Assembly: GCA_001899385.1 (NCBI GenBank)
Contig: MOYB01000004.1
Coordinates: 60,262-102,473 of the forward strand
Length of the DNA: 42,212 nucleotides
Direction: 5' to 3'
From: Candidatus Caenarcanum bioreactoricola
Lineage (GTDB): Bacteria > Cyanobacteriota > Vampirovibrionia > Caenarcaniphilales > Caenarcanaceae
Shown piece after piece: positions 2,971 to 27,411 of the stretch; the stretch's first letter is position 1, and each line of letters begins with the position of its first letter. Below the pieces are notes generated by a model. That model had not been told where the DNA came from. It worked only from the letters and a program-made list of their open reading frames with translations, and made no database searches. The position numbers were made by a program, and so were the translations under genes.

Positions 2971-3279
2971 ATGATATTAAATTTAAAATTTTCTAAAGAA
3001 TATATTCTTCAAGAATTAAAACATTTTAAAGAAGAATTTAAGAAATTATATGGAGTAACTAAACTTGGGATTTTTGGTTCAGTAGCACGAAATGAAATGC
3101 ATAATGAAAGTGATATTGATATTGTAGTTGAAATGAAAGAAGCAAATTTGTTCTTTATGGTACATATAAAAGAAATTCTTGAAGAAAAATTTAAAATGTC
3201 TGTTGATATAATACGATATCGTGCTTCGATGAACAAATATTTGAAAGCTCGTATTGAAAGAGAGGCAATTTATGTTTGA
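2971..3279 (+). CDS. MNT-type nucleotidyltransferase (antitoxin of an MNT/HEPN pair)
   Basis: A minimal nucleotidyltransferase of 102 residues. The signature 'GIFGSVARNEMHNESDIDI' contains the GS-x(n)-D-x-D core of the polymerase-beta fold. In known MNT/HEPN modules (MntA/HepT type) this enzyme AMPylates and neutralises the HEPN RNase toxin. The overlapping downstream frame (3272-3406) begins like a HEPN toxin but is cut short, so this antitoxin appears to have lost its partner. Transcription probably starts in repeat R2 copy 1. The start ATG at 2971 has no Shine-Dalgarno. Confidence 0.88.
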   Translation: MILNLKFSKEYILQELKHFKEEFKKLYGVTKLGIFGSVARNEMHNESDIDIVVEMKEANLFFMVHIKEILEEKFKMSVDIIRYRASMNKYLKARIEREAIYV

Positions 3280-8082: not shown

Positions 8083-8400
8083 ATGGCATATATAATACCA
8101 AGAAGAACATTAAGATTATTAGAAGAGCTTTTTCAGGATAGACAAAAGGCTGATTTTTTTGTTGAAGATATAGAAAAGACATTTCAAGAAAATGAAGATA
8201 TTTTAAAAATAAAAATAGAAACTTCATTAAAAGAAGATATTCATGAATTAAAAAGTGAAATTAAAGAAGAAATTAATGGAATTAAAATTGAACTTGCTAA
8301 ACAAAAAAAAGATCAAAATTTAATTTTAATTTTAGTTATAATATTTGGACTTACATCAAATCCTCTTATTTCAAATCTTATTTTAAATTTTATTAAATAA
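8083..8400 (+). CDS. Coiled-coil protein with C-terminal membrane anchor (short paralogue)
   Basis: A 105-residue protein. Residues 1-55 ('[20 protein letters not shown]' and on) are almost identical to the minus-strand gene at 20575-21063. A charged coiled coil follows (about 35-80), ending in a hydrophobic segment of about 25 residues ('LILILVIIFGLTSNPLI'). The layout (conserved N-terminus, coiled coil of variable length, C-terminal anchor) resembles Borrelia Bdr or DUF1640-type proteins, but homology is unproven. TATAAT at 8071-8076 puts the predicted transcript start on the ATG itself, so the mRNA should be leaderless. The function is unknown. Confidence 0.75.
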   Translation: MAYIIPRRTLRLLEELFQDRQKADFFVEDIEKTFQENEDILKIKIETSLKEDIHELKSEIKEEINGIKIELAKQKKDQNLILILVIIFGLTSNPLISNLILNFIK

Positions 8401-17752: not shown

Positions 17753-17802
17753 AATTTAGGCTAATTTTTTTAATTTTATTATTTGAAAGGTTAGCCTAAA
17801 TT
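17753..17802. terminator. Shared bidirectional terminator between pgk and prfB
   Basis: A perfect 12-base inverted repeat, AATTTAGGCTAA (17753-17764) and TTAGCCTAAATT (17791-17802), has T-runs after each arm in its own direction. The right arm contains the prfB stop codon. The 26-base loop is unusually large. Confidence 0.65.
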
Positions 17803-18889
17803 TTTTTCTTTTAATCTTGCTTCAATAAAATCATCAAATTCTCCATCTAAAACTCTTTGTGTATTTCTTGTTTCATGTTTTGTAAGAGGATCTTTAACTC
17901 TTCCTTCATCAAGAATATAAGATCTTACTATTGCTTCTGATCCAAATCCAGCTATAGCTCTTTTCCCTTTTATTTCTTCTATTTCACGATCTTTTTCTTC
18001 AAGCATTATTACTAAGAGTTTTGCTTTTAATGTATCTAAAGCTACTTGTTTGTTTTGATGTTGACTTCTTTGTTGATCTGAACGAATTACAATGCCTGTT
18101 GGTATATGTCTTATTCGAACTGCTGTTTCAACCTTGTTTACATTCTGTCCACCTGCTCCGCCAGATCGCATTGTTGAAACCTCAATCTCTTCTTCTTTTA
18201 TAACAATTTCATTTATTTCATCTTCTATTATTGGTGAAATCTCTAAGCCTGCAAAACTTGTCTGCCTACTATCATTACCTGATTTAAAAGGTGATTTTCT
18301 TACAAGTCTATGAGTACCTGCTTCTACACTTAAATAACCAAAAACAAAATCCCCTGAAATTTTAAAAGACACTGATTTTAAACCGGCTTCTTCACCTTCG
18401 GATTTTTCTATTATGTCAAATTTATAACTTTTTCTTTCTGCCCATCTTAAATACATACGAAAAAGCATTTCAGTCCAATCTTGAGCATCAGTTCCACCAG
18501 CACCAGCATTTATAGAAATAAGAGCAGAAGAATTATCATATTTTCCATTTAATAGCAATTCTATTTGAAAGCTCTTCATTTCATTTAAAGCCTGACTTAA
18601 AGCTTCCAAAGATTCTTTTATTAAATCTAAGTCATCTATAGTCTCTGCAATTTTTGCATCTTCAATAATAGCTTCCCATTTAGCAAGACAAGAAATTTTT
18701 TTCTTTAATATAGATAATTCTTTATTTAATGTATAAAAAGCTTTTTGATCTTTCCATATTTCTGTATTTGTACTTTGCTTTTCTAAATCTAAAAGTTTTT
18801 CTTTACTATTTTCTTTTTCAAAGACAGTCCCTTATAAACATAAAGGATTTTTCAGTTTCTGTAATTAATTTATTTAATTCTTCATGCAT
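17791..18889 (-). CDS. prfB: Peptide chain release factor 2, with programmed +1 frameshift
   Basis: RF2 releases peptides at UGA and UAA codons. The gene has two frames. Starting at ATG 18887-18889 it reads 23 codons to '...RDCL', ending CTT-TGA (18818-18823). Skipping one T at 18820 continues '[13 protein letters not shown]' in the +1 frame to the stop at 17791-17793. The joined product has 365 residues, the same as E. coli RF2. An SD-like AGGGAC sits three bases before CTT, as at the known autoregulatory site, where low RF2 promotes the shift. The codon-recognition 'SPF' is in 'RKSPFKSG' and the catalytic GGQ in '[12 protein letters not shown]'. The base after TGA is A rather than the usual C. 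A TTG at 18607-18609 would give only the truncated body. Confidence 0.95.
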
Positions 18890-20574: not shown

Positions 20575-21063
20575 TTAAATTAATTTAACTAAAATAAACT
20601 TAATAAAACTTATAAATGTTGGATTTAAAGCAGTACCAAACAAAACAGCAAGACCAATAAGCCATAATAATAAAAATCTTAAATTATCAATTTTATTGTC
20701 TAAATTTTTCATTTCAGCTCTTAAACTATTATCTAAGTTTTTCATTTCGGCTCTTAAACTATTGTCTAAATTTTTCATTTCAGCTCTTAATTCATGATCT
20801 AATATTTTAAAATCAGCTTTTAAACTTACAAAATCATTTCTTAATTCTTGAATATCTTCTTTTAATGAAGCTTCTATTTGCTTCATTTCATTTCTTAATT
20901 CATGAATATCTTCTTTTAATGAAGTCTCTATTTTTGTTTTTAAAATATCTTCACTTTCTTGAAAACCTTTTTCTATATCCTCAACAAAAAAATCAGCTTT
21001 TTGTCTATCTTGAAAAAGCTCTTCTAATAATCTTAAACTTCTAGTAGGTAATTTATATGTCAT
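20575..21063 (-). CDS. Coiled-coil protein with hendecad repeats and C-terminal anchor (long paralogue)
   Basis: A 162-residue paralogue of the protein at 8083-8400. The first 55 residues are nearly the same ('[19 protein letters not shown]'). The coiled coil is longer and includes three near-identical 11-residue units ('[11 protein letters not shown]'), typical of a right-handed or hendecad coiled coil. It ends with a hydrophobic helix ('[17 protein letters not shown]') and a second weaker one. Its upstream region shares GGTATAATTAAAATAT with the paralogue, and the predicted transcript begins within two bases of the ATG. The resemblance to Bdr/DUF1640-type proteins is architectural only. The function is unknown. 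Confidence 0.75.
20700..20798 (-). repeat. Three 33-bp in-frame tandem repeats
   Basis: Units at 20700-20732, 20733-20765 and 20766-20798 differ at only a few bases. They encode the 11-residue [11 protein letters not shown] units. Such repeats expand and contract by slippage and set the coiled-coil length. The paralogue at 8083 has none. Confidence 0.9.
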
Positions 21064-23722: not shown

Positions 23723-24901
23723 ATGGAAATTACTCAAAAAGAACTTTCTTATTGGATTGCTTTTGATAGACTCAAAGGACTTGGTCTTGGTTCAAAAAGA
23801 ATATATGAACTTTATAATCATTTTAATTCTTTAGAAATAGCATGGCATGCAGACAAAACAGATCTCTTGAAAACAAGTTCAATACCTCAACAATCAATAG
23901 AAGATTTTTTAAAAATTCGTAATTCTATTAATACTGAAATTGAAATTGAAAGACTTGAAAAATATAATGCAAAAGCTTTTCCTAGAGGTTCAAAATATTA
24001 TCCTACAATATGTGAAGCTTTAAAAAATCCACCTTTACTTTTATATGTTCGTGGAAATTGGGATTTGTCTTGGTATGAAAAATCTATAGCTATAGTCGGA
24101 ACACGAGAAGCTACTAGTTATGCAATGGAAATGACTGCCAAAATAAGTAGAGAACTTGCTTCACAAGGTTTTACAATAATTACAGGTATCGCAAGAGGCA
24201 TAGATACTGCTGCACATAAAGGTGCATTTTTAGAAGACAAAAATAGATCCGTTGCAGTTATGGCAAGCGGTGTTGATGAAATAGTACCAAAATCAAATCA
24301 AAGTATATACGATTTATTAATTAAAAAAGGTTCTGTAATAAGTGAATATCCTATAGGTACAAAACCAGAAAAAGGTTATTTCCCTTTAAGAAATAGAATT
24401 ATAGCGGCTTTAAGTCAAGCGGTTTTAGTTTCTGAAGCAAAAGAAAAAAGTGGTGCCTTAATAACAGCTGAATATGCTTTAGGATTAAACAGAAGAGTTT
24501 TTTGTTTAGGTGGAAATGCTAATAATCCTCAAAATACAGGTTGCTATAAATGGATAAGAAAAGGCATGGCGACACTTATAACTTCTTCTGCTGATATTAT
24601 TGAAGAAATGGAAATGAAACAAGAAAGTAAAATTATAGTTGATAATAATCAATTGAAATTAAAGTTTGTAGAAAAACCTCAAACTTCAGCAAGTCCAATA
24701 GCTCCAACTTCTGTAAGTAATTTAAATGAAACAGAAAGAAAAATCTATGAAGAAATATTAGGAAGACAAAGTTTAAGAATAGATGATCTTATTGATATAA
24801 CAGGACTTCCAATTGCTAAAATAAATTCTGCAATAATGACTTTAAATCTTAAAAAGCTTGTAAAAAGAAATACTAAAGGAGAATTAATATTAAATAATTA
24901 G
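23723..24901 (+). CDS. dprA: DNA processing protein DprA
   Basis: Binds incoming single-stranded DNA and loads RecA during natural transformation. The 392 residues have three parts: an N-terminal helical domain (to about 85), the central Rossmann-like domain (about 110-300) with 'AIVGTREATSYAMEM', 'TGIARGIDTAAHKGA', 'ISEYPIGTKPEKGYFPLRNR' and 'SGALITAEYAL', and a C-terminal winged helix (about 335-390). With the prepilin-peptidase-like gene it hints at competence in this organism. Its end overlaps the convergent hydrolase by four bases. Confidence 0.96.
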   Translation: MEITQKELSYWIAFDRLKGLGLGSKRIYELYNHFNSLEIAWHADKTDLLKTSSIPQQSIEDFLKIRNSINTEIEIERLEKYNAKAFPRGSKYYPTICEALKNPPLLLYVRGNWDLSWYEKSIAIVGTREATSYAMEMTAKISRELASQGFTIITGIARGIDTAAHKGAFLEDKNRSVAVMASGVDEIVPKSNQSIYDLLIKKGSVISEYPIGTKPEKGYFPLRNRIIAALSQAVLVSEAKEKSGALITAEYALGLNRRVFCLGGNANNPQNTGCYKWIRKGMATLITSSADIIEEMEMKQESKIIVDNNQLKLKFVEKPQTSASPIAPTSVSNLNETERKIYEEILGRQSLRIDDLIDITGLPIAKINSAIMTLNLKKLVKRNTKGELILNN

Positions 24902-25674
24902 TCATAATATTCAGGTGCATATTTTATTTTTGCATCAGGATCATGTCCTGTGAAAATCTTTACTCCTTGATTTTTTAGGTTTTTTACTTTTTTAATAGAT
25001 TTAACTGTATCTGCTGGACTATAAACTAAACCTGGTAATAAATCTTTTTCCAATATTTCTTCAGTATAAACACTGTCTGCTGTTAAAAATACTTTTCCTG
25101 AATGTTCTAAATCTACCATTAAACACTGATGCCCTGGTGTATGTCCCGGTGTAAATATTATTTTTATTTTTCCATCTCCAAATAAATCAAAAGGATCTTC
25201 TTCATAACCATCTAACAAATACCATTTAAGATCAGGCTTATCAAAATCAGCTCTAATATAAGCTCCTTTTTGATAAAAATCATGTACATAAGCATGTTTA
25301 AGTTCTTCTTTTTGAACATAATAAGTAGCATTTGGGAAAGCACCACATGCTCCTGCGTGATCTAAATGTAAATGTGAAAATATAACATGTTTTATCTCCT
25401 CTGCTTTTATATTAAGTTTTGCTAGCTGGTTTACAACATATTCTTCTTCAGACATTATAGGATCATAGATAGATACAACTTTTTCTCCCCAATGTTTTAT
25501 TTTATCTTTTGCAACTTCAAGAGCATTTCCAGTATCAAATAAAACATAACCTTTTGGATGTGTTATTAAAAAAAACGGAACAGGTACTTCAAAAGCTTTT
25601 CCAATATCAATTCCTGCAGTAAAAAATTGTTTTTGACTTTTTAAAGTCCCACATTTAAAAACATATAATTTCAT
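24898..25674 (-). CDS. Metallo-beta-lactamase-fold hydrolase, N-acyl homoserine lactonase-like
   Basis: A 258-residue metallohydrolase. I start at ATG 25674 ('MKLYVFKCGTLK'); an in-frame TTG three codons upstream is less likely. The zinc motif 'SHLHLDHAGACG' (HxHxDH) is near residue 105, 'TPGHTPGHQCLMV' contains the next His ligand, 'LTADSVY' the bridging Asp and 'FTGHDPDAK' the last His. This order and the start 'KLYVFKCGTL' resemble AiiA-type lactonases that open acyl-homoserine-lactone signals. A lactonase on another ester or lactone is possible. Confidence 0.82.
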   Translation of the reverse strand: MKLYVFKCGTLKSQKQFFTAGIDIGKAFEVPVPFFLITHPKGYVLFDTGNALEVAKDKIKHWGEKVVSIYDPIMSEEEYVVNQLAKLNIKAEEIKHVIFSHLHLDHAGACGAFPNATYYVQKEELKHAYVHDFYQKGAYIRADFDKPDLKWYLLDGYEEDPFDLFGDGKIKIIFTPGHTPGHQCLMVDLEHSGKVFLTADSVYTEEILEKDLLPGLVYSPADTVKSIKKVKNLKNQGVKIFTGHDPDAKIKYAPEYYD

Positions 25675-25726
25675 AATTATCAAATTTTATCATTCAACAT
25701 AGAATTTTTTAATACAAATGATTTAT

Positions 25727-25732
25727 TATAAT
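25727..25732 (+). promoter_or_regulatory. TATAAT box of the three-gene cassette
   Basis: TATAAT overlaps an in-frame ATG at 25731, so that ATG cannot be on the transcript. The predicted transcript start is next to ATG 25740, which I take as the leaderless start. Confidence 0.6.
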
Positions 25733-25739
25733 GATTAAA

Positions 25740-26528
25740 ATGAATACAAATTATAATTCTCCAAATTTTTCAAATCCACCATTAGCTGAAGTTGCTTGTG
25801 GAGTAAGTTTTGATCCTTTATTAAATATAAAATCTACCGTATTTGGCTCATTTTGGAATATTATTAAAGAAGATTTTCCTGAAATTGAAGAACAAACTCC
25901 TATACCGATTCAATCACAATTTCCTAATTTTATAATATCTAATTTACCACAATTAAGAAGATTATGGTTTATTAATCAAGAATATAACAAATTAATACAA
26001 GTTCAACAAGATAGATTTTTATTTAACTGGAAGAAAAGTGATAATGAAAATGATACATATCCCAGATTTCATAAAATTTATTCTAAATTCGAAGATTATT
26101 TAAGAAAATATAAAGAACATTTAAAATCAACTTATGAAATTAAATTAGATTATCATTCTTTTAATTTAGCTTATATAAATAAAATTGATGTTAATGCAAA
26201 TGAAATAAATTCAGTTTTTAAAGAAGAAATACTTTTAAATCAAGAGATAAATTCTCTTACACAAATTTCCTCTCAAATTAGTAAAGAATTTTTTTCAAAA
26301 AAAGAAGGTATTGGAGATTTTAGAATTATTATTAATTTAAAAATTAACTTAACAAAAGAAAATGAAAATATGAGAACTATTAGGCTTGAAATTCTTGTTG
26401 ATAGCATAAAGAAAGAAGAAGATATATTACAAGAATGGTTTGATCAAGCACATATAGAAATTAATAATATATTTTTAGCAATTACTTCTGAAAAAATGCA
26501 AGAAAAATGGGGGTTGCAAAGAAAATGA
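25740..26528 (+). CDS. TIGR04255-like protein of unknown function (cassette gene 1)
   Basis: A 262-residue cytosolic protein. The N-terminal 'NPPLAEVACGVSFDPL' and the central 'LIQVQQDRFLFNWKKS' are the patterns I associate with the sporadically distributed TIGR04255 family, whose biochemical role is not known to me. The C-terminal half is mixed strand and helix ('DFRIIINLKINLTKEN', then an acidic helix). It has no signal peptide or membrane segment, and its cysteines are few. The stop overlaps the next start (ATGA, 26525-26528). Patchy distribution and cassette layout suggest a defence, toxin-antitoxin or other accessory role, which is inference. Confidence 0.75.
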   Translation: MNTNYNSPNFSNPPLAEVACGVSFDPLLNIKSTVFGSFWNIIKEDFPEIEEQTPIPIQSQFPNFIISNLPQLRRLWFINQEYNKLIQVQQDRFLFNWKKSDNENDTYPRFHKIYSKFEDYLRKYKEHLKSTYEIKLDYHSFNLAYINKIDVNANEINSVFKEEILLNQEINSLTQISSQISKEFFSKKEGIGDFRIIINLKINLTKENENMRTIRLEILVDSIKKEEDILQEWFDQAHIEINNIFLAITSEKMQEKWGLQRK

Positions 26529-26998
26529 CAGCTATAAAAGATTTTTATTCACATATAGTAGCACTTAAACCAAATGAATATCTTCTCGATTCTAAAAGAA
26601 GTGATAAAAAAAAGGAAGATTTAATAGATTTACTTTTAAAATTCAAAAAATATGGATTATCTATTAATCCTTATGAAGAAGAGATGAAAATTACAGAAAA
26701 AGTATTTATTTTAGCTAAATCTATTATAGAAAATTTCCCTGATAAATATTCTTTCCCTAAACTTATAACTGATGAAGAAAATTCTTTGTTAATGTCTTGG
26801 CGAGGGAAAAAAATAATATTAATAACAATTAATGACGGATACAGTTTAGATATAATAATTGATGCAAGATCAGAAAATCCTATTATATATGAAAATATTC
26901 AATGTTTTCCTTCACAAATCATTAATGATTATACTTATTGGCCTGAGGAATTAAAAGAAGCTCTTGAACATATTACTGATAATAATTATAAATGTTAA
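26525..26998 (+). CDS. Cassette gene 2, strand-rich protein of unknown function
   Basis: A 157-residue protein. I choose ATG 26525 because it forms an ATGA overlap with gene 1; the in-frame ATG at 26507 would add six residues inside gene 1. An N-terminal helical half (to about 85) ends in 'FPKLITDEENSLLMSWRGKK', followed by beta hairpins ('IILITINDGYSLDIIID'). The pattern of a helix bundle, then 'P-x-[IL]-x-x-[DE]-x-[DE]-x-x-x-L-x-x-W', recalls small proteins often placed beside TIGR04255 genes. That is recollection, not a search result. It is cytosolic, with no catalytic motif seen. Confidence 0.7.
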   Translation: MTAIKDFYSHIVALKPNEYLLDSKRSDKKKEDLIDLLLKFKKYGLSINPYEEEMKITEKVFILAKSIIENFPDKYSFPKLITDEENSLLMSWRGKKIILITINDGYSLDIIIDARSENPIIYENIQCFPSQIINDYTYWPEELKEALEHITDNNYKC

Positions 26999-27411
26999 AA
27001 GAAAATATTCCAAATGAAGGTATTGTTTGTAGAGTTTTAAAAAAACCTTCAATGTATAAAGATAATGAAAATATTGATTGGAAAAGCGTATTTATGTTTA
27101 ATAGGAATTGTGAGTCTGTAATTTGGACAAAATATGCAAAAACAGAAGAAGAAATTCATAAAATTGGATTTAGAATAACAGAAAATAAAATTTATAGTGG
27201 TTATTGTTCAGCTATAGTTCTATTAATTAGAGAAATAAATATTCAGAATTATAGTTTTAAAGTTGAACATGTACCAGAAGAAGGAATATATCATGCACAT
27301 ATTTGTTATTCAAAAGAAAGAAGAGAAATTAAAAAAGCAGTACGAAGTATTTTAAAAGAAAAATTAAGTGAAATATTTGAGAAGAATATATCTCAATACA
27401 ATCCTCTATAA
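26992..27411 (+). CDS. Cassette gene 3, protein of unknown function with HAH motif
   Basis: A 139-residue protein starting seven bases before the end of gene 2. The N-terminus 'IPNEGIVCRVL' is followed by 'SVFMFNRNCESVIWTKYAK'. The centre 'GYCSAIVLLIREI' is hydrophobic, and the C-terminal part carries 'HVPEEGIYHAHICYS', then a basic helix. The H-x(8)-HAH arrangement could bind a metal or be catalytic, but no known family is assigned. Its last 19 bases overlap the convergent dehydrogenase gene. All three cassette genes overlap, so their products are probably needed together. Confidence 0.7.
   Translation: MLKENIPNEGIVCRVLKKPSMYKDNENIDWKSVFMFNRNCESVIWTKYAKTEEEIHKIGFRITENKIYSGYCSAIVLLIREINIQNYSFKVEHVPEEGIYHAHICYSKERREIKKAVRSILKEKLSEIFEKNISQYNPL

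Follow-up and report, generated by a model that had tools for sequence, protein, structure and literature searches.

In TAC modules such as HigBA-SecB(TA) of M. tuberculosis, a SecB-like chaperone keeps active an antitoxin that carries an added dependence region (PMC5105189), and in CmdTAC a phage capsid protein can pull the chaperone away and thereby free an ADP-ribosyltransferase toxin (PMC11618068). The three genes described here, found in a window of 42,212 nucleotides (the whole stretch of DNA that was analysed) from Candidatus Caenarcanum bioreactoricola, probably form a divergent three-component toxin-antitoxin module in which gene 3 acts as toxin and gene 2 as antitoxin, and gene 1, a protein of the TIGR04255 family, is a shared third component. 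Like TAC (PMC5105189, PMC11618068), the module and its relatives have three tightly packed genes, a shared third protein beside unrelated toxin-antitoxin pairs, and an antitoxin with an added region that appears to be tied to the third protein, namely the ChAD in TAC and, in the present module, the N-terminal part of gene 2. The differences are that the third protein has about 260 aa, belongs to TIGR04255 and is without detectable SecB similarity, and that the added region lies at the N-terminal end of gene 2, the ChAD being C-terminal. Also the gene of the third component comes first in the operon, whereas the order in TAC is toxin-antitoxin-chaperone. The module is not filed as TAC, since no SecB-like component, by which TAC is defined, was found.

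With the classical type II systems (VapBC-type PIN, HEPN, GNAT, Panacea), some TIGR04255 loci have the toxins and an antitoxin tail in common, but the classical systems have two genes, no TIGR04255 protein, and an antitoxin with its own N-terminal domain. A further relative is PDC-M32, a PADLOC candidate that has been called hypothetical (PMC12429752) and for which no test was found in the literature searched. It has the same succession of a gene-2-type domain and a gene-3-type protein, but in place of TIGR04255 it has another front domain, which is fused to the gene-2 domain. The module is real and recurrent and of a kind that is already known, and what is new are its third component and its effector family.

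An operon headed by a TIGR04255 protein

The three genes lie on the plus strand and have 262, 157 and 139 codons: gene 1 at 25740..26528 (ATG 25740, TGA 26528), gene 2 at 26525..26998 (ATG 26525) and gene 3 at 26992..27411 (ATG 26992). The coordinates and the overlaps of 4 bases (ATGA) and 7 bases agree with the initial annotation; in-frame alternative starts on the same strand, ATG 25731 for gene 1 and ATG 26507 for gene 2, would give 265 and 163 codons. The TATAAT at 25727..25732 (plus strand), which had been read as the promoter box of the operon, is probably there by chance: it overlaps the upstream ATG (25731), and promoter-like sites are as frequent in the region as in shuffles (32 found versus 26.2 +/- 5.4 expected), so that this box is no evidence of a promoter.

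The surroundings are ordinary chromosomal genes, named by eye, with dprA upstream and, on the downstream side, genes for a TPP enzyme and for an iron-dependent dehydrogenase, and no defence island was found among the genes neighbouring the trio. The trio has a G+C content of 0.228 versus 0.280 for the window, and the adjoining gene at 24898-25683, which is lactonase/beta-lactamase-fold-like, is without a relative at E<=1e-20 when the 19 nearest genomes are searched. For want of this neighbour, an empty-site comparison of the locus gave nothing; the low G+C and the lactonase without counterpart are weakly compatible with an acquired stretch. Elsewhere in the window, two similar low-GC ORFs (8083-8400 and 20575-21063) have a coiled-coil-like stretch in common, and a small MNT-type nucleotidyltransferase-like ORF (2971-3279; GIFGSVARNE...SDIDIVVEM) has no evident HEPN partner adjoining it. 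A release-factor-2-like ORF with a TTG start (17791-18609), the N-terminal part of which is absent from this frame, possibly reflects the usual programmed frameshift of prfB.

The assignment of gene 1 to TIGR04255, originally made from a sequence pattern, is confirmed by the NCBIfam profile (sporadTIGR04255), which matches over its full length (E=1.3e-28; 100.5 bits at a curated cut-off of 30 bits; residues 13-261 on model positions 2-252). The family has no described function, it is mentioned nowhere in the literature searched, and gene 1 is its sole copy in this genome. The AF2 model of gene 1 (pLDDT 87.8, pTM 0.87) is predicted as an alpha+beta protein of two successive sheet-and-long-helix parts, and an internal sequence repeat was looked for and is not detectable. 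A fold search in the PDB gave no match at E<=0.001, with SecB absent from the first 50 fold matches, and PDB sequence searches with the window proteins gave nothing useful. A relation to SecB was also tried by hhalign against E. coli SecB and rejected, the probability being 0.75% and like that of the controls, in what is a weak test with a single SecB sequence.

Recurrence across genomes and exchange of gene 3

TIGR04255 is present in 12 of 97 near genomes, in 33 of 386 genomes of the phylum and in 33 of 382 of the class (samples that overlap one another), and a scan with the gene-1 alignment turned up 36 named loci, which come from Planctomycetota, Acidobacteriota, several proteobacterial groups, SAR324, Nitrospira and cyanobacteria. 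The module thus recurs across phyla, and the recurrent small partners next to TIGR04255 genes that the initial annotation mentions are confirmed, as the trio is found as neighbours in many genomes. Of 88 homologous loci, 87 have a gene-2 start no more than 30 nt from the gene-1 stop, and in 42 the overlap is exactly 4 bases; since these loci were picked for having a candidate gene 2, the figure describes coupling and not frequency. Such a tight coupling of gene 1 and gene 2 is a trait of the family.

What does not hold is that the trio is constant, because gene 3 has been swapped repeatedly, and the element that stays the same across the loci is the succession of gene 1 and gene 2. Among 116 gene-1 hits (tallied after removal of four duplicate loci, and including a few fragments or overlapping fetches), the gene-3 slot is occupied by the family of the window, hereafter type A, in 30 loci plus the window itself, by A-like proteins (judged by eye) in 7, by a type B in 38, by a type C in 8, by PIN and HEPN proteins in 4 each, and by a GNAT and a Panacea protein in one each. 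In the other 22 no effector was recognised, some of them being at contig ends, and one locus (L049/L126) has no same-strand partner for gene 1. Pfam identifies PIN in four loci (E=6.8e-11, 6e-7 and 4.5e-6, plus a sub-cut-off match at 0.0043), HEPN in one at 4.7e-8 and in another below the cut-off at 0.0048 (the other two HEPN labels were given by likeness), SocA_Panacea in one locus at 3.4e-16, and GNAT weakly, below the cut-off. PIN, HEPN, GNAT and Panacea-linked proteins are well-known components of toxin-antitoxin systems. The proposed classification of the trio as an accessory operon of toxin-antitoxin or defence type, headed by TIGR04255, is supported. On the gene-1 tree, which is a quick tree with SH-aLRT as its only support measure, there are at least 17 changes of effector type, and even if only strongly supported branches are counted, 6 changes for type A, 8 for type B and 3 for PIN are required. 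TIGR04255, which NCBI lists only as 'sporadic', thereby gains a testable role as the element that three-gene modules with six or more kinds of effector have in common.

Type B, which accompanies TIGR04255 more often than any other type in this set, is another candidate effector family; the representatives that were searched against Pfam gave no match. Its gene 3 reads 'QGD...CPV...TQ(A/S)CDL...LLPPYREHLSQ(A/S)FARFFMRVGLP' (L065:6370-6984, L074:2650-3219, L047:2510-3049 and about 35 other loci). The type-C loci (L040, L041, L046, L052, L054, L057, L115 and L119) have a gene 2 that resembles helical repeats, and their gene 3, 165-180 aa long, contains 'SLW...H' motifs; the one locus tested has no Pfam assignment.

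A BLAST search for gene 3 in plasmids found none, and searches for relatives of the trio in phages and viral contigs found none either; three gene-3 relatives adjoining gene-2 or gene-1 matches were found on plasmids. On a Mycobacterium paragordonae plasmid (L129:3992-5731), TIGR04255, gene 2 and gene 3 are flanked by a MobF relaxase gene on one side and by a gene for type IV secretion coupling on the other.

The R-S-P-H family and the modular gene 2

All homologues found with a profile built from 12 type-A relatives stand at the gene-3 position. Window gene 3 matches the type-A profile, from which the window sequence was left out in every round, over residues 4-122 (hmmsearch E=5.8e-5 among 6042 reading frames). 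It is a member of the family by this match, by its third position in the operon and by the presence of all four signature residues, R, S, P and H. Their codons on the plus strand are those of Arg14 (27031..27033; R in 39 of 42 homologues), Ser42 (27115..27117; S in 40 of 42), Pro95 (27274..27276; P in 33 of 38) and the invariant His101 (27292..27294; 41 of 41), which is the first H of 'HAH'. The motif given before as H-x(8)-HAH has in fact the spacing H93-x7-H101-A-H103, and the idea that the histidines of gene 3 as a group form the active site is not supported: gene 3 is likely the active component, but H101 is the only conserved one, H93 and H103 being variable. Searches with window genes 2 and 3 in Pfam, NCBIfam, PADLOC and PHROGs gave nothing convincing, and among these collections there is no match to a housekeeping family, in line with the initial annotation. 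The R-S-P-H family and the 'QGD...CDL' family of type B, both without Pfam or NCBIfam match, are nominated as toxins.

In the relatives, the N-terminal part of gene 2 travels with gene 1 and its C-terminal part with the toxin. The clearest case is a Nostoc locus with a PIN toxin (L066), where residues 129-174 of gene 2, 46 in number, match the tail of an antitoxin-like protein of 96 aa from a Planktothrix plasmid with 59% identity (E=2e-14). The gene of this plasmid protein is overlapped by 4 bases by a gene whose product is 63% identical to the L066 PIN toxin, and the same pair occurs on a second plasmid (L174). The N-terminal half of both plasmid antitoxin-like proteins differs from L066 gene 2, which is an ordinary plasmid antitoxin tail with a new N-terminal region grafted onto it. 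Similarly, the last 38 residues of gene 2 in another locus (L055) are 71% identical to a 99-aa Nostoc plasmid protein, whereas a type-A and a type-B locus (L030 and L038) have the N-terminal approximately 125 aa of gene 2 in common (E=1.7e-6), despite their different gene 3s. These shared tails and the shared N-terminus indicate that gene 2 is modular. One type-B gene 2 has an Xre-like antitoxin HTH just below the cut-off. A resemblance of gene 2 in the GNAT-linked locus (L111) to a DUF1778 tail is not claimed, as a search in plasmids gave no match.

Window gene 2, the proposed antitoxin or adaptor, is assigned to the family by its position, size and overlaps only. Against the gene-2 family profile it stays at background level by hhalign (P=0.013) and gives E=1.1 by hmmsearch, and its stretch PKLITDEENSLLMSW aligns with the family motif PxVxPxxxGGiqlEW. 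In the same genome there is a short gene-2-like paralogue (L024, G000:C66:38062-38289) with 42% identity over 73 aa to window gene 2, which lies near a radical SAM gene and without TIGR04255.

Rival readings and a possible mechanism

The repeated exchange of gene 3 together with the antitoxin-tail graft is the reason why the trio is read as a three-component toxin-antitoxin module. Against this reading speak the missing significant match of window gene 2 to the gene-2 family, the 22 of 116 gene-1 hits without recognised effector, with L049/L126 lacking a same-strand partner, and the lack of SecB similarity in gene 1. A reading in terms of phage defence proper, with TIGR04255 as an infection sensor and gene 2-gene 3 as an abortive-infection effector related to PDC-M32, is quite conceivable, if somewhat short of an even chance. 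The window genes have no match to the PDC-M32A/B models, but in relatives gene 2 does match PDC-M32A, though in its C-terminal domain only (E down to 1e-11), and a Rhodococcus plasmid pair is at once PDC-M32A (E=1.7e-168) plus PDC-M32B (2.1e-41) and a match to the independent gene-2 (2e-17) and gene-3 (3.7e-9) profiles. The window trio and PDC-M32 are thus joined via one antitoxin-toxin pair, and the plasmid loci and the PDC-M32 pair connect the module with mobile DNA as well as with a candidate for defence. In this Rhodococcus pair the front is the PDC-M32A N-terminal domain fused to the gene-2 domain; other fronts of the gene 2-gene 3 pair are a DUF4209 protein (Hymenobacter plasmid) and an unknown 235-aa protein (L131), and in four loci (L132, L133, L136 and L137) the pair has no front gene. 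The PDC-M32A model gave one partial match in 194 genomes of the phylum. Defence is favoured also by type I R-M, PbeA and SoFic genes among the PADLOC matches in the neighbourhoods of named homologues (112 examined, without background control), and CmdTAC is a precedent for a tripartite toxin-antitoxin system as phage sensor (PMC11618068). Yet PDC-M32 is itself only a candidate, the neighbourhood in the window is not a defence island, and no related gene was found in the phages and viral contigs searched.

That gene 3 is a toxin of ADP-ribosyltransferase type with an R-S-H signature, like CmdT in CmdTAC, is doubtful, and the fold evidence is a lead only. For the confident model of one relative (L063; pLDDT 95.3), the best Foldseek match is KptA tRNA 2'-phosphotransferase (prob 0.72, TM 0.45, E=0.24), and other KptA chains and AvrPphF ORF2 are among the first 50, from which gene 3 may have an ADP-ribosyltransferase-like fold, as KptA and AvrPphF ORF2 both belong to that superfamily. 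However, all these matches have E>=0.24 and TM below 0.5, and hhalign of gene 3 against KptA and RES profiles gave probabilities under 1%; a fold search in viral proteins returned nothing informative. It is rather unlikely that TIGR04255 is an autoregulatory or oligomerisation partner that replaces a DNA-binding domain lost from the antitoxin. Such a replacement would fit the L066 graft, which misses exactly the N-terminal domain of the stand-alone antitoxin, but gene 1 is modelled as an alpha+beta sheet protein with no obvious HTH or RHH, and some type-B gene 2s retain an Xre-like HTH. Least of all is it to be expected that the copy in the window has lost its function and is decaying or persists as a neutral remnant: it is very divergent, occurs in none of the 4 sampled genomes of its own family and has the low G+C given above, but all three frames are open, both overlaps are intact and the four signature residues of gene 3 are kept.

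If the three-component toxin-antitoxin reading is right, TIGR04255 would, by analogy with TAC, bind the N-terminal part of gene 2 and keep the antitoxin active against gene 3. Upon loss or titration of gene 1, by stress or by a phage protein, gene 2 would be degraded, and gene 3, no longer held back, would then arrest the cell. That gene 3 is toxic, that window gene 2 binds and silences it, and that gene 2 depends on gene 1 we infer, the last by analogy with TAC, whereas the trigger and a role in defence are guesses. As gene 1 has no similarity to SecB, its role as a chaperone-like holder of the antitoxin would be one assigned by analogy. On this reading TIGR04255 would be what unites a class of growth-arrest or anti-phage switches that is open to testing. 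Should the third component indeed control the stability of the antitoxin, the TAC principle would have been invented twice, independently. More tentatively, TIGR04255 could be a widespread, SecB-unrelated hub that controls many toxin-antitoxin pairs via the antitoxin N-terminal region, possibly with infection sensing, and gene 3 a new toxin family that possibly uses NAD. On an Acetobacter persici plasmid (L128:4031-5336), a protein with two gene-2-type domains overlaps an SspB-like gene (Pfam SspB, E=2.5e-11). SspB is an adaptor for ClpXP, and this overlap is suggestive of antitoxin degradation.
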